Source: Candidatus Gastranaerophilales bacterium (GTDB taxonomy: Bacteria > Cyanobacteriota > Vampirovibrionia > Gastranaerophilales > Gastranaerophilaceae). From it: DNA of 45,404 nt. Below, piece after piece: positions 1 to 10,705 of this stretch (the stretch's first letter is position 1; each line of letters starts with the position of its first letter). The DNA lies in NCBI GenBank assembly GCA_944324385.1, contig CALUWD010000012.1:1-45404 (forward strand), in the 5' to 3' direction. The notes beneath the pieces are model-generated. The model made no database searches, was not told where the DNA came from, and saw only the letters and a list, made by a program, of their open reading frames with translations. Position numbers and translations under genes: made by a program.

Positions 1-1059
1 CACTTTGGGCTAACAGAGGGTAATGACTGGCAATTTATAAAATCGCAACAAAAAATTGTCTTTAAAAACGGTTCCAATATTCTTTTTCGGCATTTTGACG
101 AACCAAATAAACTAAAGTCGCTAAACCTTGGTTTTGCTGAAATTGAAGAAATGTCCGACATTCCTGAAGCAACGTTTAAAATGCTTTTAGGGCGTATGCG
201 CCAGAAAAAAAGAAAAAACTGGAAAGACTTTAAATACAGGATTTTTGGACACACAAACCCGCAGAGCAGGCGCGGCTGGATTTACAAAAATTTTGCAGAC
301 AGCAAAAAACCTAACTATCGCCTCGTTCTTGCACCATCTACAGAAAATATTTATCTGCCCAAAGACTTTTGTGAAAACTTAAAAAGCGCATATGATGAAA
401 GCTACTACAAAAGAAATGTCCTCGGTGAATTTGATGAGGATAACTGCCCGCTTGTAGTACCAAATTTCAGCAGTGAAAACATTGCAAAGGTAAATTATTT
501 AGATTACTGTGACTTGCACATTTCTTGCGACTTTAACGTTGATCCAATGTGTTGGATTTTGGCCCACATTGATAATCATAAAGTCTACTTTTTTGATGAA
601 ATTGTGCTAGAGAATACAACCACAACCCAAACTTGCGAAGAATTTGCCCGCAGATATCCTTATCACAAAGGCAAAATCATCATAAACGGCGACGCCTCAG
701 GCGATAATCGGACATGTGTCAGTGAATATACAAACTACATGCTCATTCGCAACTTTTTTGCACAAAAAATGAAAAGAAACGTCGAATTTCACCTAAGGCA
801 ATTTAATCCGCCAATTAAAAACAGAGTAGCGGCTTTTTGCTCTATGGTAAAGTCAATGGATGGACAGAGAAAAATTTTAATCGACCCTAAATGCGAAAAA
901 TTAATTTACAACATGAACAATTTAAAATACCGCGAAGGTGGCTCTAACATTGACATTCCAACGTATTGGGCAATTAAAAATAACAAAGAGCTAAAATTCC
1001 TCTCACACCCTTTTGATGCCGCAAGCTACCTTGTAGAGTATTATTTCCCAATTATTTAG
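1..1059 (+). CDS. Phage terminase large subunit, 5'-truncated by window edge
   Basis: The frame is open from base 1, so the gene begins before the window; the first in-frame ATG at 151 is internal. Terminase large subunits are ATPase-nucleases that translocate phage DNA into proheads. The visible part starts just before a Walker-B-like segment (GFAEIEEMSDIPE, about 130-170), followed by the C-terminal RNase-H-like nuclease domain. Candidate metal-binding acids lie in ISCDFNVDPM (near 530), IINGDASGDNR (near 690) and in DAASYLVEYYF at the C-terminus. The N-terminal Walker A is outside the window. No portal or capsid gene follows, which is unusual for an intact head module and suggests a prophage remnant or edge. 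The family call is firm; phage functionality is unknown. Confidence 0.85.
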   Translation, partial: HFGLTEGNDWQFIKSQQKIVFKNGSNILFRHFDEPNKLKSLNLGFAEIEEMSDIPEATFKMLLGRMRQKKRKNWKDFKYRIFGHTNPQSRRGWIYKNFADSKKPNYRLVLAPSTENIYLPKDFCENLKSAYDESYYKRNVLGEFDEDNCPLVVPNFSSENIAKVNYLDYCDLHISCDFNVDPMCWILAHIDNHKVYFFDEIVLENTTTTQTCEEFARRYPYHKGKIIINGDASGDNRTCVSEYTNYMLIRNFFAQKMKRNVEFHLRQFNPPIKNRVAAFCSMVKSMDGQRKILIDPKCEKLIYNMNNLKYREGGSNIDIPTYWAIKNNKELKFLSHPFDAASYLVEYYFPII

Positions 1060-1071
1060 AAAGGACAAAAA

Positions 1072-1314
1072 ATGAATATTGATAACTACCTTGAATTTGC
1101 ACCTATTTTAATAGTAATTATTATTTTTGCCGCACAAACGAGAATTTTTATAACTCCTGAGGCATTAGAGAAAAAACACAGAGAAATAATGAACGAATGC
1201 CAAGGACGTTTTGCTTCAATTATCTACATTAAAGAACTAAAAAACCAGTGGGGTGAAATAAAAGAGAAAATCGACAAAATTTATGATTATTTTCTGCAAA
1301 CCCATGGAGATTAA
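1072..1314 (+). CDS. Small membrane-anchored protein downstream of terminase, unknown function
   Basis: An 80-residue protein starts 12 nt after the terminase stop, with AGAAAGGA in front of its ATG. Residues about 10-22 form one hydrophobic segment (PILIVIIIFAAQ). The rest is charged and helical (EKKHREIMNE, KNQWGEIKEKIDKIYDY), so a single membrane anchor with a coiled-coil tail is likely. Position and same-strand spacing suggest co-transcription with the terminase gene, hence a phage-derived accessory protein. I do not recognise a family; a small phage membrane protein such as a spanin or holin accessory is possible but not supported by any motif. Confidence 0.6.
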   Translation: MNIDNYLEFAPILIVIIIFAAQTRIFITPEALEKKHREIMNECQGRFASIIYIKELKNQWGEIKEKIDKIYDYFLQTHGD

Positions 1315-1335: not shown

Positions 1336-1776
1336 TTAATTTATTAACCTTAAAAATAACTCGGAATAGTTAAAATATTTCTCAAGAAACAGATGTGAAG
1401 AAACCACGCTCAACCACCCAAGGGGTGAAACAAAAAAGAGCCCCATCCAAAATAGGATTTTATGTAAAAGTTTATATTTATCAGGAATTTTATTAACCAA
1501 TTGAAACTCTGTTTTGTTCTTCTTTCTAATAAAAAATTCACCAAGAATAAGAGCAAAAAACACTGCACAGAGATGACAGACAAAATTAAGGTAAAGTACA
1601 CTTACCAAAACCGATAAATAACCCAGCATATCCCTATCATGGTGGTAACCTTCAAGATCTGCCCAGTCAAGCGGAGAGAACACAAACTCTACGCCTATGC
1701 AAAATAAAATACAAAGATACCCAAGTAATGAAAGGAGGTTAGAAGTTGTAAATTTAGTTAAGTTGTTTAATTTCAT
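1336..1776 (-). CDS. Tandem paralogous membrane protein, copy 4 (last in operon)
   Basis: A 146-residue hydrophobic protein of unknown function and the last transcribed of four paralogues. It has about three membrane segments (roughly residues 15-32, 52-83 and 108-128). Between the second and third lies a positively charged loop shared by all copies (FFIRKKNKTEFQLVNKIPDK). The C-terminus has the shared YFNYSELFLRLI motif. Its start overlaps the stop of the preceding copy in an ATGA arrangement, so translational coupling is likely. Around the third membrane segment it resembles the first-transcribed copy (YKLLHKILFW) more than its neighbours, suggesting gene conversion. No terminator is evident after its stop. 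Confidence 0.7.
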   Translation of the reverse strand: MKLNNLTKFTTSNLLSLLGYLCILFCIGVEFVFSPLDWADLEGYHHDRDMLGYLSVLVSVLYLNFVCHLCAVFFALILGEFFIRKKNKTEFQLVNKIPDKYKLLHKILFWMGLFFVSPLGWLSVVSSHLFLEKYFNYSELFLRLIN

Positions 1777-2219
1777 AGTTTGTCTATCAGCCTTATAAAT
1801 AGTTCCGAGTAGTTGAAATATTTTTCAAGAAGCAAATGTATGAAAAACATACTCAAAGGACCAAGGGGTGAAACAAAAAAGAGCCCTAACCAAAACAAAA
1901 TTTTATACAAAGGTTTATATTTATCAGGAATTTTATTAACCAGTTGAAACTCTGTTTTGTTTTTCTTTCTTATAAAAAATTCAATAAGAATGAGAGCAAA
2001 AAACACAGCGCAGATAAAGCATGCAAGCATAAAGTACAGCGCGCTTGTGGCACTTGAAACAAAACCCAGCATATCCCTGTCGTAGTTGTAACCTTCAAGA
2101 TCTGCCCAGTCAAGCGGGAAAAATATAAATCTTATGTATAAAAAACACAAAATACCCGGATATCCAAGTAATGAAAGGAGGTTAGAAGTTGTAAGTTTAG
2201 TTAAATTGTTTAATTTCAT
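1773..2219 (-). CDS. Tandem paralogous membrane protein, copy 3
   Basis: A 148-residue paralogue with the array's layout: an N-terminal MKLNNLTKLTTSNLLSLLGY block, a variable first membrane segment, the SPLDWADLEGY-like loop (here FPLDWADLEGY), a second hydrophobic stretch, the basic FFIRKKNKTEF loop, and a final membrane segment with YFNYSELF. The middle part (DMLGFVSSATSALYFMLAC) is identical to copy 2, so these two are the closest pair. It overlaps both neighbours by four bases (ATGA). The function is unknown; the family is defined here only by internal similarity. Confidence 0.7.
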   Translation of the reverse strand: MKLNNLTKLTTSNLLSLLGYPGILCFLYIRFIFFPLDWADLEGYNYDRDMLGFVSSATSALYFMLACFICAVFFALILIEFFIRKKNKTEFQLVNKIPDKYKPLYKILFWLGLFFVSPLGPLSMFFIHLLLEKYFNYSELFIRLIDKL

Positions 2220-2662
2220 AGTTTATCTATTAACCTTAAAAATAACTCGGAATAGTTAAAATATTTCTCAAGAAACAAGTACGAGAAAAACATACTCAAA
2301 GGACCAAGGGGTGAAACAAAAAAGAGCCCTAACCAAAACAAAATTTTATACAAAGGTTTAAATTTATCAGGAATTTTATTAACCAGTTGAAACTCTGTTT
2401 TGTTTTTCTTTCTAATAAAAAATTCAATAAGAATGAGAACAAAAAACACAGCACAGATAAAGCATGCAAGCATAAAGTACAGCGCGCTTGTGGCACTTGA
2501 AACAAAACCCAGCATATCCCTGTCGTAGTGGTAGCCTTCAAGATCTGCCCAGTCAAGTGGAGAAAATATAAACTCGTTATAAAGCGACAGTAAAATGCAA
2601 GGATACCCAAGCAATGAAAGGAGGTTAGAAGTTGTAAATTTAGTTAAATTGTTTAATTTCAT
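2216..2662 (-). CDS. Tandem paralogous membrane protein, copy 2
   Basis: A 148-residue member of the four-gene array, nearly identical to copy 3 from about residue 50 onward (both contain KILFWLGLFFVSPLGPLSMF). Divergence is concentrated in the first membrane segment (residues 20-32) and near the end of the third. Start and stop both overlap neighbours by four bases. The conserved cytoplasm-like basic loop (RKKNKTEFQLVNKIPDK) and the variable membrane and loop regions suggest a common partner for the loop with diversified membrane faces; that is inference only. No catalytic motif is visible. Confidence 0.7.
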   Translation of the reverse strand: MKLNNLTKFTTSNLLSLLGYPCILLSLYNEFIFSPLDWADLEGYHYDRDMLGFVSSATSALYFMLACFICAVFFVLILIEFFIRKKNKTEFQLVNKIPDKFKPLYKILFWLGLFFVSPLGPLSMFFSYLFLEKYFNYSELFLRLIDKL

Positions 2663-3102
2663 AGTTTGTTTATTAACCTTAAAAATATCTCGGAATAGTT
2701 GAAATATTCATCAGTTTTTAGTCTAACAAAAATGATTGCGAACATACCAAAAGGCGAAACAAAAAAGAGCCCTATCCAAAATAGGATTTTATGTAAAAGC
2801 TTATATTTATCAGGAATTTTATTAACCAGTTGAAACTCTGTTTTGTTTTTCTTTCTAATAAAAAATTCAATAAGAATGAGAACAAAAAACACAGCACAGA
2901 GAAAACAGGTAAATAAAAAATAAATACCAAACCAGCAAGAAGTATTATACCCAGCCATTTCAGGATGAATACCCCATTCAGGATCAACACTGTCAATTAC
3001 TGCAAATATAAAAGCAAGATACATGCAGCACAACATACAAAGATACCCAAGTAATGAAAGGAGGTTAGAAGTTGTAAGCTTAGTTAAATTGTTTAATTTC
3101 AT
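2659..3102 (-). CDS. Tandem paralogous membrane protein, copy 1 (first in operon)
   Basis: First transcribed gene of the array. The reading frame extends six codons further upstream, but the ATG at 3102 gives the same MKLNNLTKL start as the other copies, so I choose it (147 residues). It is the most divergent copy: the usual PLDWADLEGY loop is replaced by a stretch around VIDSVDPEWGIHPEMAGYN, and the third membrane segment reads GMFAIIFVRLKTDEYF. The basic loop and YFNYSEIFLRLI end are retained. Upstream on the minus strand lies TTATAC, which could be a -10 close to the start; no Shine-Dalgarno is obvious. Confidence 0.68.
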   Translation of the reverse strand: MKLNNLTKLTTSNLLSLLGYLCMLCCMYLAFIFAVIDSVDPEWGIHPEMAGYNTSCWFGIYFLFTCFLCAVFFVLILIEFFIRKKNKTEFQLVNKIPDKYKLLHKILFWIGLFFVSPFGMFAIIFVRLKTDEYFNYSEIFLRLINKL

Positions 3103-3150
3103 AAGGCAAGTATAACACAATTTTTTTTAGAAAGGAAAAATATGGCAAAC

Positions 3151-3177
3151 AAAAAAGCCCTGAAATTCAGGGCTTTT
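3151..3177 (-). terminator. Rho-independent terminator of tpsB
   Basis: Inverted repeat with arms at 3153-3164 and 3166-3177 (core GCCCTGAA / TTCAGGGC). The A run at 3151-3156 reads as a U tract on the minus strand. It lies just past the tpsB stop at 3194. The CCCTGAA/TTCAGGG arms are the same as those of the palindrome at 45169-45189, which may be chance. Confidence 0.8.
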
Positions 3178-3193
3178 AAACTTTATTTTCAAA

Positions 3194-4978
3194 CTACAGG
3201 ATGTTTGATGTAATTGTGAAGTGAACGCGGCAATTTGATGCGCCTTCAGGCTTATCGCCAATAGGAATACCAATGTAGACGTTACCTGATAAGTATCTTG
3301 TAAGTCTGACGATTAAACCACCGCCCACGCTCATTACGTAATTAGGGCCATACGTGCCTGTGCCGACATTGCCAAACCAACCTGCATCATAGAATGCTGC
3401 CCACTGAATAGAATCATCAATAAATTGAAGTTTTTCAGGTAAAATTCTATTCAAGAAAGGTATATGAGACCTTAATTCTAACGACGCTGTTACACCATAG
3501 TCACTAAGCAAGAAACCTTCTTCATAACCACGTACAGATGAAATACCGCCGAATTGCATTTTTTCAGATGCATACAAACCATGGCTTGCCCATTGACCGC
3601 CGGCTTGAATAATTGCCATAGATCTCATAGGTAAGATTTGCAACCTTGCTAAGTTTGCGTTAACTTTTACGTATTTATTTGTCGGCAACCATCTTTCATG
3701 ATAACCGTCGAACTCATCAGACGCATTCATAATAGGCAGACCAACGCTTGCGCCGACATTACCAAACCATTTACCATAAAAGTCGTCTTTAATATTGGTT
3801 AAGTTAACCCTTAAAGCACGAGTTTTGTAAGCACCACCGGGGAGAACGAGTTTTTGCTCACCGATTGTAGATTTTGTATTTCTTATATCTAAAGAAACAT
3901 CACCGTATAATTTATAGTTTTCGGTTTTTACCAATCTTCTTGAAAGACCTACGAAGAAATTGTGTGAATGACCTTTAATATCAAGATCTTTCCATTCTTC
4001 ACCCATGGTCAATCCGCTGTAGCTGTAGCCTAAGTTCAATTTTGTTTCATGACGTCCGATAGGTACAGAATAGAAAATACCTTGGCTCACTGAACGCCTT
4101 GCCAGAGCTGTTGTTGACAATAATTTGTCACCCCAGCCGGTTAAGTTGTACATACCTGCAAAGAATACCGCACGGTTTAGACCGATAGCGTCACGGCCTT
4201 GGTTATCAAAACGAAAGTCAAAGTCAATTGGAAATCTGTCTTTCATTTGCAAGGTTAAATCTGTGTATTGCGCAGATTCTTCATTATCTTGCATAGAAAC
4301 TTGACCCTTCATATACCCTGAAGCGTTCATTTCTCTCAAGGTTTCTTGGATATCACGAACGTTCAAAACATTTTCAGGTTCAATATTTTTATCTTTTAAA
4401 TAAGTAGCACGAACAAATTTGTCCCTTGCCCACTTATTACCTTCAATTTCAACTTTACCGTATTTACCTTCCATAACGACAATTTCAACGTTACCGTCTT
4501 GAACTTTTTGCGGTGGAAGATAAGCTATTGTTGAAATGTAGCCGTTTTGTTGGTAATACTCTGTTACCATATTTGCCATGGTAATAAGGTCATTAATAGT
4601 AACTTCATTACCAATTCTTTCGCAAATTAAATCCATCAATTGTTCTTCGGTAAAGCGAGTGTTACCTGTAAATTTTATTGAATTAAGTTTAAAACTTACT
4701 TCTTTATTAGGAAGCTGATCAACCTGCTCCCTCATTTTTTTGTCCATTTCAATAACTTCACGTCCGCGTTCATGTTCTTCCATGTTTTCACGCGTTCTAC
4801 GTTCATATTCCTTTAATTGAATTAAGTTTGTCTGGTCGACAACACCAGGGTCAAAACTACCACCTATGGGGTTTCCTTCAAACGGGACAGATGAAACAGC
4901 GAATGCAGCTGTGCTTGATAACAGAAAACACATTGCAAAAGATAATATTCCCGACTTTTTAAATTTAAAACTGCGCAT
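3194..4978 (-). CDS. Two-partner secretion outer-membrane transporter TpsB (ShlB/FhaC family)
   Basis: TpsB proteins are 16-strand outer-membrane barrels of the Omp85 superfamily that secrete a dedicated TpsA partner. This 594-residue protein has a signal peptide (residues 1-27, ending STAAFA), a charged helix and linker (about 45-85), POTRA-type domains (about 93-245, including SFKLNSIKFTGNTRFTEEQL), and a C-terminal barrel. The barrel holds the hallmark VRGY motif (GGISSVRGYEEGF, near residue 480). The C-terminus ends in a hydrophobic strand (VHFTITSNIL). AAAAGGAATTT before the ATG supports the start. It diverges from tpsA 391 bp away, which names its substrate. Length and domain order are normal for the family. 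Confidence 0.93.
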   Translation of the reverse strand: MRSFKFKKSGILSFAMCFLLSSTAAFAVSSVPFEGNPIGGSFDPGVVDQTNLIQLKEYERRTRENMEEHERGREVIEMDKKMREQVDQLPNKEVSFKLNSIKFTGNTRFTEEQLMDLICERIGNEVTINDLITMANMVTEYYQQNGYISTIAYLPPQKVQDGNVEIVVMEGKYGKVEIEGNKWARDKFVRATYLKDKNIEPENVLNVRDIQETLREMNASGYMKGQVSMQDNEESAQYTDLTLQMKDRFPIDFDFRFDNQGRDAIGLNRAVFFAGMYNLTGWGDKLLSTTALARRSVSQGIFYSVPIGRHETKLNLGYSYSGLTMGEEWKDLDIKGHSHNFFVGLSRRLVKTENYKLYGDVSLDIRNTKSTIGEQKLVLPGGAYKTRALRVNLTNIKDDFYGKWFGNVGASVGLPIMNASDEFDGYHERWLPTNKYVKVNANLARLQILPMRSMAIIQAGGQWASHGLYASEKMQFGGISSVRGYEEGFLLSDYGVTASLELRSHIPFLNRILPEKLQFIDDSIQWAAFYDAGWFGNVGTGTYGPNYVMSVGGGLIVRLTRYLSGNVYIGIPIGDKPEGASNCRVHFTITSNIL

Positions 4979-5369
4979 TTAAATTCCTTTTCATACTTTT
5001 TTGTTGTAATAAGCCAATTATTACATTTCAATAATAATATATAATGGCGATGTCAACAATAAATCATATTAATGATTTATTTTGGTGAGTATTTTCTAAC
5101 ATATTTTAAAAACATTCCTTTTTCAACATTTTAATTTTAATAAAATACGTGAAAAAAATAATTTGCTAGTAGCAATTTATTTTTTTTATATTATAATCAA
5201 CAATACTCATACGGAATGGCATGAATTAACAAAAAAAGGAAATGGTAAAGATTTGTAAATTTTATTAACATTTTTTGATATTAGTGCAATTTTTTATCTT
5301 TAGAAGTTTTTATATAAGTAATCGGAATATTATATAAGAAGTATATATTTATAGAAGAAAGGAAACATA
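4979..5369. other. Divergent tpsB-tpsA intergenic region (391 bp)
   Basis: Very AT-rich, with no gene. It must hold both tps promoters. On the plus side there are several TATA-like hexamers (TATAAT at 5192-5197, TATTAT at 5328-5333), but none has a convincing -35, so I do not assign the tpsA promoter. TTGCT-AGT-AGCAA at 5163-5175 is a small inverted repeat that could be an operator. AGAAAGGAAACAT directly before 5370 is a strong ribosome site. Confidence 0.6.
5003..5031 (-). promoter_or_regulatory. Candidate tpsB promoter
   Basis: On the minus strand TTGAAA (5026-5031) is followed after 17 nt by TACAAC (5003-5008). This would start transcription about 18 nt before the ATG and leave room for the AAAAGGA ribosome site. 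A perfect TTGACA further up (5051-5056) lacks a good -10 at the right distance. Confidence 0.4.
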
Positions 5370-8300
5370 ATGAAACTTAAGCACAAAAAATTAGCTTCAG
5401 CGTTAGTTTTACTAAGCTTTTTAAGTTACATGCCACTATCAAGCACTATGGCTTTTGCTCTTGATGCAGGTACATTACCTGATTTAAACAACTCTATTAA
5501 CGGCTCTGTTTCAACAAGCGGCAACAGAATGGATGTTGTAGTTAACGGCGGTGCAGGCGCTATTGGTCAATTCGATTGGAATTCATTCAATGTAGGCGCA
5601 AATGGACATGTTAACTTTGGTTTTACAAACAACTCTCAAACATCACTAAACCGTGTACTTGCTTCAGGCGGTTTATCTCAAATTTATGGTAAATTAACAA
5701 ACTCTTGCGCAGGCGCAGATTGCTCAAGCTATATGGGCACAGGCAAAGTTATCCTTATCAACCCAAATGGTATTATGTTCGGTAACGGTTCAGAAGTTAA
5801 CTTAAACTCATTTACTGCAACAACTTTTGACCTTAAAGGCGCTAAAAATATTAAAGATATGACTCCTGAAGAACTTGCAGCATACAAAAACCAAATCAAT
5901 GTCCAAACAAACGGACTTCCAGCTGATATGGTTACAAATGCTCAATTCATCAGAAACGGTGTTTTAACTACAAAAGACGGCGCAGCAGTTACACTTGATG
6001 GCACAAACTTTGATATTAATAAATCTTTAGGCATAGCAGCAGACAACGTTGTAGTTTACAAAGATTCTTTAATCAAAACAAGTATCAACCCTAACTATGG
6101 CGGCGGTCAAAACCCTGCAAACCATGACCAAACATTCTCTAACGTAAGAATCGTTACAGGTGATGGTGTTAACTTCAATTATGAATTAAACGGATACATT
6201 AAAAGCCACAAAGCAAACGAAAGCAACAGCTTACAAAATAACATTAAAATTGCTGATTCAACAATTGAATCAGGTGCAGTTTATGTAGAAAACGCAAGCA
6301 AAGTTGCTGATTCTGACATCAACATTAAAAACTCTGTTGTTAAAGGTTACAAACTTGTAAAAGGTGACTACGGTGACATCATTATCAAAGGTCTAAATGA
6401 TGTTAATATCGAAGGTTCTCACCTTGAAACACAAAATACTCACAGAGAAGGCAACCCTGACATTAACACATACAACCAAAACGGTGGCAGAATTGCAATT
6501 ACAGCTGGTAAAAATGTTAATATGACAGATACAAAAGTTGCAACTGCATTTTCAGGCAAAAATTATAACAGCTCAGGTGTTAGAGGCTCTAACGCTGGTG
6601 ATATTTCAATCAAAGCTGAAAACAACAATGTAAATCTTGAAAATACAAACCTACATGCTAAAGGCAACTTGACAATTGATGCAAACAACGGTTCAATCAA
6701 AGCTACAGATTCAGTTCTAAGAGCAAGAAACTACTCAAGCAAAGATCCTAATGCTGAAAACTTAGCTAAGAAAATTGTTTTAAATGCTAAAGACAACATC
6801 ACTTTAGACAAAACATATTCTGAATCAACTGATTACACAACTCTTAAAGCTGACAGCGTTGATGTTAAAAACGGTAGCACAATGCATTCAAATAAAAACA
6901 TCAACTTGTTTGGCAAAGACACAACAATCGCTGATTCTACATTGCAATACAAAGGTTTACTAAACTTTGTTGAAGACGAAAGCATACTAAATAACGTTAC
7001 AATTTCAGGCACAACAGGCTTCAACAACTACACAAATGATTTAAACCTTACTACAAACGGTAACTTAACAATTGACAATAACAGCCTTGTAAAAAGAGGT
7101 TTCAGCGCAATCCCTGATGATGATACACTAGATATGAACGTAACATTAAAAGATTACGGCAACCATGACTCAATTGCTCTTGAATCTACAAAAGGCAAAG
7201 TTACAATCAAAAACAACTCTGATATCAAAACAAACACAGGCGACATTTCAGTTAAAGCACTTGATTCAACAAACGGCGAAGTATTTGTTCAAAACTCTAA
7301 ACTTGTAGCAGCAGGTAATGTAGACATCAAACAAGCTTTAACTCACAACGCTGGTACTCACATCACAAAAGATTCAACTCTAAGTGGTAAAAACATTAAA
7401 ATCACAACTACAAACTCTGATGCTGATATCAATGCAGACCTTGCAAACTTTGCAAACCTAAACTACAGCGAACGTTTAGTTCTTAATGCAGGCAGAGATA
7501 ACAATGTAACAGGTACAGGCGACTTAAACGCTACAAGAGTTGACTTCAATGCAAACAGAAACAACAACTTAAATATCACAGGTAACATCACAACAGATGA
7601 TACAACATTCAACGGTCACGTTAATAACATAACAGCTACAAAAAATGTAACTCTTAAAAACACAACTCTTAAAGCAAAAGATTCATCTGCTCCTGAAAAT
7701 ACAAAAACAATTGTTAACGCAGGCAAAAACTTCACAACAGATGGTACAGTACTAAAAGTAAACGGCACAAAATTAATCGCAAATGCTGATAAAGATACAA
7801 ACATCGTTGTAAGCGGTGTTAACAACAAAAAAGCAGGTATCGAAATCAACGCTAAATACAACAGCGACGAACTTTCAAACAAAACAGTAACAGTTAACGC
7901 AGCTGACAATACTTTAGCAATCTCTAAAATCAAAGCAGGTAACTTGAACCTTGACGCTAACGATACATTCCTTGCAGCACTTACTAACTTAACAACTTCT
8001 GACTTAGAAGGTGTTGACAAAGATGCAACAGGCAGAGCATACATCGAAGTTGCTAACTGGGGACAATTCAACCTAGACCCAATGGATGGAATTGAATACA
8101 CTAACCCTGATACATTCACTTACACTGATCACTTCGTACCTGGTAAATACCAACCTGAAGCAGGTGAAGCAATCGATACATACAAAAAACACTTCATCGA
8201 ATTTGATTCAAACGGTGTAATGGAAAAATTCCTTCTAGTTTACGAAAAACCTGTCGAAGGTTGCGCTCCTGAACCACCTATCGAAGGTCCTACAGACAAC

Positions 8301-8507
8301 TTCAATCCTGATATGTCAACCCCAAGCGGCGAAACATTAATCAACCAACTACGCTTACCACGTCAATTAGAACCAACTTCAAGAGTAGCTCCAATCGACA
8401 ACAACACAACAGACCCAACATCAGGTATCGTAAATGCAGCAGCAAGAATTGAAGTTGATGACAACGCAACAACAACTAAAAAGCAAGAAGAAGAATTTGA
8501 AATATAA
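5370..8507 (+). CDS. Two-partner secretion exoprotein TpsA (filamentous haemagglutinin-like)
   Basis: A 1045-residue secreted adhesin-like protein and the partner of the divergent TpsB. It has an N-terminal signal peptide (residues 1-30, ending STMAFA). The TPS domain (about 35-280) carries the conserved NPNGIMFGNG motif near residue 131, needed for recognition by TpsB POTRA domains in this family. The rest is a long, Asn/Thr/Lys-rich series of short beta-strand repeats (e.g. NGNLTIDNNS, AGNVDIKQA) typical of a right-handed beta-helix. The C-terminal about 150 residues change character: PEPPIEGP and LRLPRQLEP, then an acidic end (KKQEEEFEI). Only a few cysteines are seen (CAGADC near 115, EGCAPEPP near 968). 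No toxin domain is visible, so adhesin rather than contact-dependent toxin is the likelier role. Confidence 0.92.
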   Translation: MKLKHKKLASALVLLSFLSYMPLSSTMAFALDAGTLPDLNNSINGSVSTSGNRMDVVVNGGAGAIGQFDWNSFNVGANGHVNFGFTNNSQTSLNRVLASGGLSQIYGKLTNSCAGADCSSYMGTGKVILINPNGIMFGNGSEVNLNSFTATTFDLKGAKNIKDMTPEELAAYKNQINVQTNGLPADMVTNAQFIRNGVLTTKDGAAVTLDGTNFDINKSLGIAADNVVVYKDSLIKTSINPNYGGGQNPANHDQTFSNVRIVTGDGVNFNYELNGYIKSHKANESNSLQNNIKIADSTIESGAVYVENASKVADSDINIKNSVVKGYKLVKGDYGDIIIKGLNDVNIEGSHLETQNTHREGNPDINTYNQNGGRIAITAGKNVNMTDTKVATAFSGKNYNSSGVRGSNAGDISIKAENNNVNLENTNLHAKGNLTIDANNGSIKATDSVLRARNYSSKDPNAENLAKKIVLNAKDNITLDKTYSESTDYTTLKADSVDVKNGSTMHSNKNINLFGKDTTIADSTLQYKGLLNFVEDESILNNVTISGTTGFNNYTNDLNLTTNGNLTIDNNSLVKRGFSAIPDDDTLDMNVTLKDYGNHDSIALESTKGKVTIKNNSDIKTNTGDISVKALDSTNGEVFVQNSKLVAAGNVDIKQALTHNAGTHITKDSTLSGKNIKITTTNSDADINADLANFANLNYSERLVLNAGRDNNVTGTGDLNATRVDFNANRNNNLNITGNITTDDTTFNGHVNNITATKNVTLKNTTLKAKDSSAPENTKTIVNAGKNFTTDGTVLKVNGTKLIANADKDTNIVVSGVNNKKAGIEINAKYNSDELSNKTVTVNAADNTLAISKIKAGNLNLDANDTFLAALTNLTTSDLEGVDKDATGRAYIEVANWGQFNLDPMDGIEYTNPDTFTYTDHFVPGKYQPEAGEAIDTYKKHFIEFDSNGVMEKFLLVYEKPVEGCAPEPPIEGPTDNFNPDMSTPSGETLINQLRLPRQLEPTSRVAPIDNNTTDPTSGIVNAAARIEVDDNATTTKKQEEEFEI

Positions 8508-8520
8508 TTCATAAAAAAAT

Positions 8521-8554
8521 AAAAAACACCCTCCCTAAAAAGAGGGTGTTTTTG
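8521..8554 (+). terminator. Rho-independent terminator of tpsA
   Basis: Stem arms AAAAACACCCTC (8522-8533) and GAGGGTGTTTTT (8542-8553) with an 8-nt loop and a terminal T run, placed 14 nt after the tpsA stop. Confidence 0.9.
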
Positions 8555-8607
8555 TATATAAAAAATCTCATACAAATGATAGTATTTATTTTAATTAATT
8601 TTTGATA

Positions 8608-8613
8608 TATAAT
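8608..8613 (+). promoter_or_regulatory. -10 box immediately before the TPR gene (leaderless candidate)
   Basis: A perfect TATAAT ends 7 nt before the ATG at 8621, and there is no Shine-Dalgarno sequence. Transcription would start at about the A of the ATG. The -35 region (around 8585-8590) is weak. Confidence 0.55.
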
Positions 8614-8620
8614 AATTTCT

Positions 8621-10705
8621 ATGGAAAGAAGACTATTAATTCCCCTCATATGTACAAGCTTTATGCTGCAACTTGGTGCAAATGCTCAACTAGCAACAAC
8701 TTGCACACCAAAAAGCGGTTTTGGTGCACAAAAAATCTACGCTCTTGAGCAACAATTACGCCAAAATGAAGACCCAGACATAATTAAAAAATATGTAAAC
8801 ACCCAAAAAAGACGCTCTACATATTTTAAAATATTTAAAAGAGATAACATTGAAGCATGTGATAATCTCCGAGCAGCACTTTATTTCTTAAGGCAAAATA
8901 AAAACTCGCAAGAATACAAAGACACACTTGCTAAGCTAAACAGCCTCATTGAAAAATCAGGCTTTCAAAATGATGATTCTAACAGGTTTGAAATTGCAAA
9001 AAACCTGTTCCTTGAAGGCAACTATTATGCAAGCGCATACGAGTTTGAAGAACTATTTGAAAAAGGCTACGAATGCTCAGCATGTTGCGAGTATTTAGGT
9101 GATATAGAGCTAAAAATCAATAACGACAGGACTTGCGCTCTGCCTTATTATAAAAAATCAGTAGAATTTAACCCAAACAACGCGTCAGCCCTTTTTAAAA
9201 TAGCTACAATTTTAAACGAAATCAATAAAACTGACTTGGCGCTTGAATATTACACAAGGGCGATTAATTTAACAGATGACCCTGAAATATTAAAAAAAGG
9301 TATTGCAGTTTTTACAAAAGCAGTAAGGAGAAAGCCCAAAAACGCAAACTTGTACGAAATTTTAGGTACAACTTATGAAAAAACAGGCGATTACAAAAAA
9401 ACTTATGAACTTTATCAAAGGGCGATTTATTTAAACCCTAAAGATATTTTCTTGAAATACCGTCTGGGCGGGCTTTTATACGAAACAAAACAGTACCCTC
9501 AGGCAACAAGAATTTATGATAATATTTTAAGAGATAACCTCTATGAATCTCAAATCCGCGCAGGAAAAGCAAAGAGCCTCCTTGCACTTGGTCAAACAAA
9601 CGCAGCTCTTAAAGAATATCAGGTAATTTTAGCCATTTACCCTGAGTCAAAACAGGCAAAATACGGCATTTACGAAATTTTTAAAGACAAAAAAGACCCT
9701 GATTTTATAATTGATAATTTTTATCCACTAAACGAGGATTTTAAGCCATCAAGCGAATTTTACGCTGAATTTGCTGAACTTATCACAAGTCTTGATGGCA
9801 GCAACAAAGACGCAATTTACTTATACAAAAAAGCAATTGAAAAAGACCCTAAAAACGCTAATGCTTATTTAAAATTGTATGAAATTTATGAACTAAAAGG
9901 AGAGGACTCTCTTGCAGCAGATTTAATTAAAAAAGCCCATAAAGAGCTCCCTAAAAATGAGGAGATAAGCAAAGTTTTTTTTTATCTCAACAAAAGCACA
10001 GACACCAAAAAAGATGAATTAGCTCTCAATTACCTTAAAAAAAGCGAATGGGCAAAAGCAATAAAAATGTATGAGCAAATTGAACCTAAAACAAGTCAGG
10101 TTTATGTCGCCATTGCAAATTGCTATAAATATTTAAAAAATTATAATAAAGCTGTTGAAAATTACAAAAAAGCTCTTGAGCTTGATAGCACCCAGTCTGA
10201 TACTTATTACTCACTTGCGCTTGTTTACCTTGAGCAAAAAAGCCCAGAACTAGCACAAAGCATGCTCCTAAAGGCAATCGAGCTTGACCCCAGAAACGTA
10301 AAGGCAATAAAACTTTCAAATTATTTAAGAGGACAAGTTGTGACAAATCTCTTAAATGAAGCTTATACCTATTACGACAAAAAAGACTATGAAAAGGCGC
10401 TGAACGTCACAAACGACATAGTTAAACGCTATCCGCAAGACTCTCAGGCATACTATTACAGAGGCGTCATTTTAGAAGCTATGCAAATGTACCCTCAGGC
10501 AATAAAAGACTACAGAACAACTGTAAAACTCAACCGCTCGTTTAGTTTAGGCTACTATTCACTTGCTAAAGCCTATGAAAAAATTGGCAAAGAGCGCGAC
10601 GCACTTGAGGCTTATGAAAAATATCTTTCAGGCAACCCAAAAGAAGAAGAACTTATAAAAGAAGCAGAAAAAAAAGTTATTGAACTTGGCGAAAAATATT
10701 ACTAA
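8621..10705 (+). CDS. Exported TPR-repeat protein
   Basis: A 694-residue protein beginning with a signal peptide (MERRLLIPLICTSFMLQL, cleavage likely after GANA at residue 22). After a helical region it contains many tetratricopeptide repeats from about residue 120 to the end. Examples are ALPYYKKSVEFNPNNASALF, YKKTYELYQRAIYLNPKD and YNKAVENYKKALELDSTQSD. TPR solenoids are protein-binding scaffolds; the partner cannot be read from the sequence. It follows the tpsA terminator and lies 9 nt before kdsB on the same strand, so it and kdsB probably share a transcript and an envelope role. The start is supported by the export signal and the adjacent -10 box. Confidence 0.85.
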   Translation: MERRLLIPLICTSFMLQLGANAQLATTCTPKSGFGAQKIYALEQQLRQNEDPDIIKKYVNTQKRRSTYFKIFKRDNIEACDNLRAALYFLRQNKNSQEYKDTLAKLNSLIEKSGFQNDDSNRFEIAKNLFLEGNYYASAYEFEELFEKGYECSACCEYLGDIELKINNDRTCALPYYKKSVEFNPNNASALFKIATILNEINKTDLALEYYTRAINLTDDPEILKKGIAVFTKAVRRKPKNANLYEILGTTYEKTGDYKKTYELYQRAIYLNPKDIFLKYRLGGLLYETKQYPQATRIYDNILRDNLYESQIRAGKAKSLLALGQTNAALKEYQVILAIYPESKQAKYGIYEIFKDKKDPDFIIDNFYPLNEDFKPSSEFYAEFAELITSLDGSNKDAIYLYKKAIEKDPKNANAYLKLYEIYELKGEDSLAADLIKKAHKELPKNEEISKVFFYLNKSTDTKKDELALNYLKKSEWAKAIKMYEQIEPKTSQVYVAIANCYKYLKNYNKAVENYKKALELDSTQSDTYYSLALVYLEQKSPELAQSMLLKAIELDPRNVKAIKLSNYLRGQVVTNLLNEAYTYYDKKDYEKALNVTNDIVKRYPQDSQAYYYRGVILEAMQMYPQAIKDYRTTVKLNRSFSLGYYSLAKAYEKIGKERDALEAYEKYLSGNPKEEELIKEAEKKVIELGEKYY

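Follow-up and report, generated by a model that had tools for sequence, protein, structure and literature searches.

A four-gene array and the vestige of its partner gene

We analysed a 45,404-nucleotide contig of a Candidatus Gastranaerophilales bacterium (CALUWD010000012.1, assembly GCA_944324385.1), referred to below as the window, which is the entire contig C12 of a genome (G000) of 1.69 Mb in 42 contigs with 99.2% completeness. At 1336-3102 on the minus strand it carries four intact genes, arranged end to end, whose products have three hydrophobic segments each (three-transmembrane, or 3-TM, proteins) and which we interpret as a putative array of immunity proteins left behind by the deletion of a partner toxin gene. 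The immunity-like proteins comprise 147 (copy 1, 2659-3102), 148 (copy 2, 2216-2662), 148 (copy 3, 1773-2219) and 146 amino acids (copy 4, 1336-1776), and the genes are joined by three ATGA overlaps of 4 nt at 2659-2662, 2216-2219 and 1773-1776, as described in an earlier note on this sequence, which had given their length as about 147 codons. A search of the genome found these four members of the family and no others.

Protein identity among the copies ranges from 66 to 91% (66, 78 and 75% against the copy at 1336), with copies 2 and 3 forming the closest pair (91% protein identity, 10% DNA difference). All four share the N-terminal sequence MKLNNLTK.TTSNLLSLLGY, carry the basic loop IRKKNKTEFQLVNKIPDK and have YFNYSE close to the C-terminus; the variation falls in TM1, in the external loop, in the early part of TM2 and in TM3, which agrees with the earlier description of a conserved loop and C-terminal motif set among differing membrane segments. 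The topology predicted by eye from the positive-inside rule places the N-terminus and the basic loop inside and an acidic loop outside. No Pfam or NCBIfam family, housekeeping or named membrane family included, matched the array proteins over cut-off, and neither PHROGs nor PADLOC gave a convincing match. An AlphaFold2 (AF2) model of copy 2 reached a pLDDT of 76, and a fold search with the immunity-protein model (Foldseek and VIA, four chains listed) returned none above Z 3.2. Viral contigs searched with the family's own alignment yielded no copies.

The region upstream of the array reveals what has been lost. An extended -10-like site, TGTTATACT (3109-3117, minus strand), identified by eye and present as the same nine bases in three aligned relatives, lies 6 nt ahead of the copy 1 start and appears intact, so placed that the array message may perhaps be leaderless; a simple scan did not list it. 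Facing the other way, at 3130-3156 on the plus strand, is the vestige of a gene of the DUF6973 family (the toxin gene, in what follows), consisting of a ribosome-binding site, an ATG and the codons M-A-N-K-K, which align with the toxin 5' end of the related genomes G011, G010 and G007. These five codons run directly into a terminator-like hairpin, readable from both sides (3153-3177), that in relatives trails the toxin stop codon. The junction coincides with ACAAAAAA (3149-3156, plus strand), an 8-bp repeat; relatives carry it close to each end of the toxin gene, as a deletion between short repeats would predict. The comparison thus shows a toxin gene lost from the window, apparently between the 8-bp repeats, with the promoter region, the array and the terminator kept. 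A genome 94.4% identical over 12.9 kb (G014) retains the toxin's last codons at a contig end; when G000 was searched for the toxin, the sole match was a motif in the phage-like protein gp214 described below, and the toxin hairpin pattern was absent. The divergent spacing between toxin gene and 3-TM gene is tight, at about 40 nt. The earlier note had described an unknown membrane protein family. The family does not stand alone, and the note overlooked this partner gene, which is divergent in relatives and deleted here.

Turnover of the site across the genus

Within the genus, the flanks of the site are constant at high identity, with the transporter gene fhaC on one side and the phage-like genes gp80 and TerL on the other, and its content changes. 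Type I toxins stand with type I partners in G009 and G011 (two copies each), in G010 (at least two, at a contig break), and in G006 and G007 (four copies each), where the toxin reaches two contig ends and carries an in-frame TGA, respectively. A type II toxin occupies the site in G004, with one partner, and in G008, which has an additional type III partner without its toxin; a type III toxin does so in G013, with an additional type II partner, and in G001, where the toxin is in two frames and additional genes are present. G003 has a type III partner by itself and G005 has neither toxin nor partner, such absences being somewhat doubtful because the genomes are incomplete; the site was not resolvable in G002, G012 and G014. 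A fourth toxin-partner pair lies at another location in G003 and G006. In all 11 of the 11 pairs of the genus the toxin type corresponds to the type of the divergently adjacent partner, and five genomes (G000, G001, G003, G008 and G013) hold a partner without its toxin.

These comparisons show that toxin and partner types change together at one site with unchanged flanks. They bear out the earlier suggestion of an accessory, variable position, and the type-concordant pairing with DUF6973 favours immunity among the several options then offered. Constancy of copy number and sequence, or a match to a housekeeping protein, had been named as evidence that would count against those ideas; instead, copy number varies (with values that include 4, 4, 4, 2, 2, at least 2, 1 and 0) and no housekeeping family matches. 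At the same variable site, G001 also contains a second tandem family of small membrane proteins (L041:1032-1502, 1594-2028 and 2497-2955) that has no BLAST match to the array family.

The relationships among copies cut across species. Copy 1 is 97% identical in protein to copy 3 of G006 and of G007, from which its DNA differs by 2.5-2.9%, as against 25% from its own neighbours; copy 2 is 95-96% identical to copies of G009, G006 and G007, and copy 4 is 94.5% identical to copy 1 of G011. Copy 3 is a mosaic, its nearest relative being G009 copy 1 in TM1 and G006 copy 1 in TM3 and the C-terminus. The order also differs, reading A1-A2-A2'-A4 in the window and X-A4-A1-A2 in G006 and G007. Within the window, synonymous sites differ by 0.15 over the first 20 codons and by 0.24 over TM2b and the basic loop, against 0.47-0.65 elsewhere, and in a PHI-type recombination test on 16 of the 17 compared copies the observed value was reached in 0 of 999 permutations, which rejects an absence of recombination. 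Taken together, these results indicate that old variants have been retained across species and reordered, with their shared parts homogenised, and they show copies that have, as judged from their alignment, been duplicated, reordered and recombined. Gene conversion had been proposed on the grounds that copy 1 resembles copy 4 and copy 2 copy 3: the mosaicism is real and the second pairing holds, whereas copy 1 is nearly equidistant from copies 4 and 2 (25.5% and 26.1% DNA difference) and pairs with copy 4 at codons ~101-112 only. Diversifying selection, also proposed, finds no such backing. The ratio pN/pS lies below 1 in every segment, at about 0.5 in the variable and 0.1-0.2 in the conserved ones, a pattern of segments that are relaxed or diversified; against orthologues it is 0.09-0.25 for the window copies, as expected of constrained genes.

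DUF6973 proteins, their partners and a phage-like element

The toxin gene belongs to the DUF6973 family (PF22322): four copies tested from the genus score 40.6-47.2 bits against a cut-off of 27, and 20/20 aligned proteins match the model. Invariant in these 20 are D46, A47, F48, H50, E74, N89, M90, D91, N94, N95 and G98, R99 being present in at least 90%; H50, E74 and D91 are also invariant in a separate set (12/12). These residues include an H/E/D triad, which we assign to helices 2-4, and an NNxxGR motif, matching the triad and the sNxxGR motif of the Wnt/SAA clade in the available text of a study of the lipocone superfamily, which predicts action on lipid head groups and describes a C-terminal 'broken hairpin' (Burroughs, Nicastro and Aravind 2025, PMC12419801). 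A profile of the 20 proteins found one solved structure, PDB 9uu0, entitled 'B. fragilis T6SS effector' (BteO; E 1e-7). An AF2 model built from 12 sequences (mean pLDDT 71, pTM 0.59, core blocks mostly 74-90) matched 9uu0_A best (Z 10.9 over 119 residues, 3.7 Å, 19% identity), followed by 8tzo_A, a chain of a Wnt7a-WLS-CALR entry (Z 8.6), and then by a third row at 5.2. Foldseek alone gave no match to the model in the PDB below E 0.001; against BFVD it returned two phage proteins named DUF6973 (E 2.4e-3 and 3.4e-3). The model has strands at 223-230 and 236-242, covering the terminal stretch where YTRDDGTKVKSYYRKR lies and forming a C-terminal hairpin, and window-type toxins show no signal peptide by eye. 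We are fairly confident that DUF6973 is a lipocone, and BteO together with the triad leads us to infer that it acts as a toxin. In L081, L085, L090 and L094 an alternative tail resembling GKWVTINGNHVLIKD replaces the hairpin tail, making the C-terminus modular. Bte2 was considered as a solved homologue and rejected as VasX-like. Literature searches found no paper under the name DUF6973, and none on BteO with Bacteroides fragilis.

Across the order, PF22322 occurs in 58/146 genomes. We surveyed 77 loci in two batches of 30 and 47, with 78 open reading frames (ORFs) kept after two duplicates were dropped and no core match in L131 and L138; 66 ORFs align at all seven active-site columns and 12/78 miss one or more. 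A divergent 3-TM neighbour accompanies 44/49 ORFs with a canonical active site and 1/17 of the others (Fisher p 3.7e-10; L115 was counted as canonical on re-reading, and without it the first fraction is 43/48). Among strong matches alone the neighbour is found beside 44/48 canonical and 0/7 altered copies (p 1.6e-6). Related sequences inflate these p-values, and the contrast nonetheless recurs within a single genus, g7, where a partner lies beside 4/4 HE copies and 0/6 YE copies, and where G103, G105 and G130 each carry an altered copy without partner together with an intact copy with one. The 3-TM partners adjoin DUF6973 genes in 14/17 genera with aligned copies. In an alignment of 49 partners (46 survey loci and three of the window's genus) one residue is fully conserved (49/49), a Glu at the end of TM2, ahead of the basic loop, the start Met coming next. 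The survey thus shows DUF6973 genes paired divergently with 3-TM partners that share an invariant Glu. By our criterion a second homologous tandem copy is present at 2/46 survey loci, so that tandem growth is not confined to the window's genus.

The array adjoins a phage-like element of ~10-12 kb that encodes a LuxR-like HTH protein, Amidase_2, a virion-like protein of 509 amino acids, a GNAT protein, the major head protein, gp214, the small terminase, the portal, TerL and gp80, and that is represented at window 1-1314, G000:C39 and L034:689-10346. In the window TerL, the terminase large subunit (1-1059, plus strand; PF04466, 64.5 bits), is followed by gp80 (80 amino acids, 1072-1314, plus strand), the final gene of the element, which converges on the array and occurs in the same place across the genus at 88-100% identity. 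What had been called a phage terminase remnant is merely cut by the contig end: TerL is intact in relatives as part of the conserved element. Membership of the array in a terminase operon is ruled out by its opposite strand. In G006, host-type genes lie within ~3 kb of the element, with no integrase or replication gene seen between. The portal gene is found in 88/142 genomes of the order (21/40 genera), mostly in single copy, and TerL in 36/60 family genomes; conserved single-copy head genes of phage origin, as these counts indicate, are what is looked for in a gene transfer agent (GTA), and the element is a candidate for a GTA or another domesticated element of Gastranaerophilales. No paper joining 'Gastranaerophilales' and 'gene transfer agent' was found. 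The element's portal is only 20-26% identical to 12 records, cyanobacterial phages among them.

DUF6973 genes are linked to this element more often than chance would predict, with 14/50 PF22322 hits in portal-bearing genomes lying within 10 kb of the portal on one contig, against an expectation of ~1.1% per hit (a simple binomial that ignores relatedness), and with matches within 3 kb of the portal in G080, G103, G105, G121 and G130. A search with the toxin profile retrieved 10 viral contigs. In L151, L153, L154 and L155 a cassette is embedded among several genes of the element, and L156 and L157 also contain some of its genes; among known phages, none of 50,697 records had this toxin. Two DUF6973 and 3-TM cassettes follow each other at L153:2597-6137, between the element's GNAT and portal genes, and at L152:7568-9982. 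A motif of ~29 residues, F-T-x-E-E-I-x-x-M-S-x-D-E-F, ends gp214 (L034:5836-6480) and recurs in DUF6973 C-termini. In an hhalign comparison, the terminal part of gp214 aligns over 29 columns with part of the toxins' C-terminal region (probability 95.7, E 9.7e-9), as against 0.07 for the toxin core. The shared motif is a possible capsid-docking signal and gives ground for the idea that the toxin is cargo. Five of the six altered g7 loci have TerL or portal in the flank. In L074, L077, L078, L079 and L080, a DUF6973 copy whose active-site His is replaced by Tyr lies beside TerL and portal without a 3-TM partner, and these copies may be toxins that lost their activity and were taken up as a component of the particle. 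A second portal gene, divergent from the first, adjoins a weak DUF6973-like match at G139:C1:169692-172153; it may belong to another phage element that has the DUF6973 link as well.

The other flank begins with FhaC/ShlB, a two-partner secretion transporter (3194-4978, minus strand; PF03865 and PF08479) found in 14/15 genus genomes at 83% identity or more. With a TpsA-like protein of 1045 amino acids and a TPR protein it makes up a two-partner secretion locus (3194-10705) that is kept in the genus. TpsA is far more variable than FhaC (~67-92% between the genomes compared), and its TPS domain is the sole Pfam domain over cut-off. The DUF6973 gene accounts for the array better than immunity of the contact-dependent inhibition (CDI) type for TpsA would.

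Weighing an immunity role for the array

The pairing, the type concordance, the deleted toxin gene and the persistence of partners after toxin loss together make it probable that the array consists of membrane immunity proteins against DUF6973-family toxins, orphaned in the window by deletion of the cognate gene and diversified by recombination; an immunity role for the 3-TM proteins in general we consider likely. In the mechanism we propose, DUF6973 would be a soluble, Wnt-like lipocone enzyme acting at the outer side of the inner membrane on a phosphate-linked lipid head group of a membrane or carrier lipid, a target that we favour by a little. The 3-TM protein would intercept the toxin, or shield against it, at the outer face of that membrane, with specificity coming from the variable TM1, external loop and TM3 and a common function from the conserved inner part and the Glu, and several tandem variants would broaden protection against the toxins of sister strains. 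The toxin could leave the cell through lysis or be carried in the neighbouring phage-like particle, which is a lead only and the weakest step; delivery linked to a particle seems to us possible but somewhat doubtful. Less likely still is the full picture in which a domesticated GTA-like particle across Gastranaerophilales carries a Wnt-fold toxin docked via the ~29-residue motif, with the 3-TM family protecting kin and non-producers keeping orphan arrays.

Several observations weigh against immunity by an orphan array. Five of the 49 canonical copies have no recognised partner (in L121 probably because of an overlong ORF), one weak non-canonical match does have a 3-TM partner, and the altered active sites represent few events, six of the seven strong ones being in g7. 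The genomes are incomplete metagenome-assembled genomes in which arrays break assemblies (G006, G010 and G014). Positive selection on the array is unsupported, with no segment reaching a pN/pS of 1, and the constraint measured against orthologues may reflect the time before the loss, since orthologue divergence is older than the deletion. Known toxin-immunity pairs are usually co-directional, and the DUF6973/3-TM pairs are divergent. Both leading structural matches (Z 10.9 and 8.6) fall below the caution level of the tool for helical bundles (~13), and single-sequence scans of the toxins with the Pfam Wnt and SAA models gave no match. Finally, the parts of the lipocone study available to us report that toxins with a broken hairpin tend to come without immunity proteins or without a secretion system (PMC12419801).

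An intracellular suicide or toxin-antitoxin-like module, in which DUF6973 would work against phage or stress inside the cell that makes it, with the 3-TM protein as its anchor or restraint, would suit the tight divergent spacing and the lack of a signal peptide by eye in window-type toxins, and the accessible text of the same study proposes antiviral systems with Min-Wnt domains that stay within the cell (PMC12419801). It seems improbable to us, given that partners persist and multiply without the toxin, which is not needed of a pure antitoxin, that export or packaging is suggested by the C-terminal hairpin and by the motif also found in a phage head-cluster protein, that the homologue 9uu0 is titled a type VI secretion system (T6SS) effector, and that none of the nine proteins run through PADLOC had a relevant match. 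The Amidase_2 gene of the element, the small size of the 3-TM proteins and a single weak match of copy 1 to a PHROG 'holin' (E 0.89) could instead suggest phage lysis or superinfection exclusion, with DUF6973 as a lysis accessory and holin-, antiholin- or exclusion-like partners. This we judge highly improbable: many pairs are located away from the element (36 of the 50 PF22322 hits in portal-bearing genomes do not lie within 10 kb of the portal on the same contig), and the partners, which lie on the opposite strand, are missing where the active site is altered though the element stays. That a membrane protein with no connection to its DUF6973 neighbour was amplified for dosage or housekeeping, as co-directional tandem copies with pN/pS below 1 might suggest, is barely credible for a family without known housekeeping matches that adjoins DUF6973 in 14 of 17 genera and shares one invariant residue.

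The proposed immunity to a DUF6973 toxin has parallels in known systems. Judged from the available text of PMC12419801, the SAW clade of lipocones (Min-Wnt, prok-SAA) resembles DUF6973 in its triad, NNxxGR motif, soluble helical core, C-terminal beta-hairpin and lack of a signal peptide, and other lipocone toxins have membrane or periplasmic immunity proteins, as proposed here. Min-Wnt is listed there with a 4-TM immunity protein, whereas the regular partner of DUF6973 is a divergent 3-TM protein with an invariant TM2 Glu; DUF6973 is not named in that text, and its enrichment near a phage-like element sets it apart from the lipocone toxins described. BteO (9uu0) shares core motif and fold with DUF6973 but is, by its title, delivered by a T6SS in Bacteroides, unlike here. 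The orphan immunity arrays of Bacteroidales (rAID/AID), as far as the accessible part of their description goes (PMC12247911), likewise consist of co-directional short immunity genes of divergent sequence without a cognate toxin; the array in the window differs in having no recombinase, flanks of FhaC and gp80/TerL, one family duplicated in place and a visible toxin vestige. Phage-encoded MuF toxins (PMC5576092) and Bxa (PMC11699363) also combine toxin and immunity in a prophage-like setting, according to the portions of those reports at hand, and the present system differs from them in its 3-TM partner and conserved 10-12 kb element, with no MuF Pfam match listed for the toxins scanned.

Most likely, then, the putative 3-TM immunity family is new and the toxin-immunity biology itself is of a known kind. 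As a candidate immunity family for hairpin-bearing Wnt-like lipocone toxins, it may provide a handle on their target. The array would be a snapshot of a cheater-like step, in which the toxin was deleted between short repeats and immunity was kept and multiplied, and it would link a conflict system of the little-studied gut Gastranaerophilales to a phage-like element found in most sampled members of the family.
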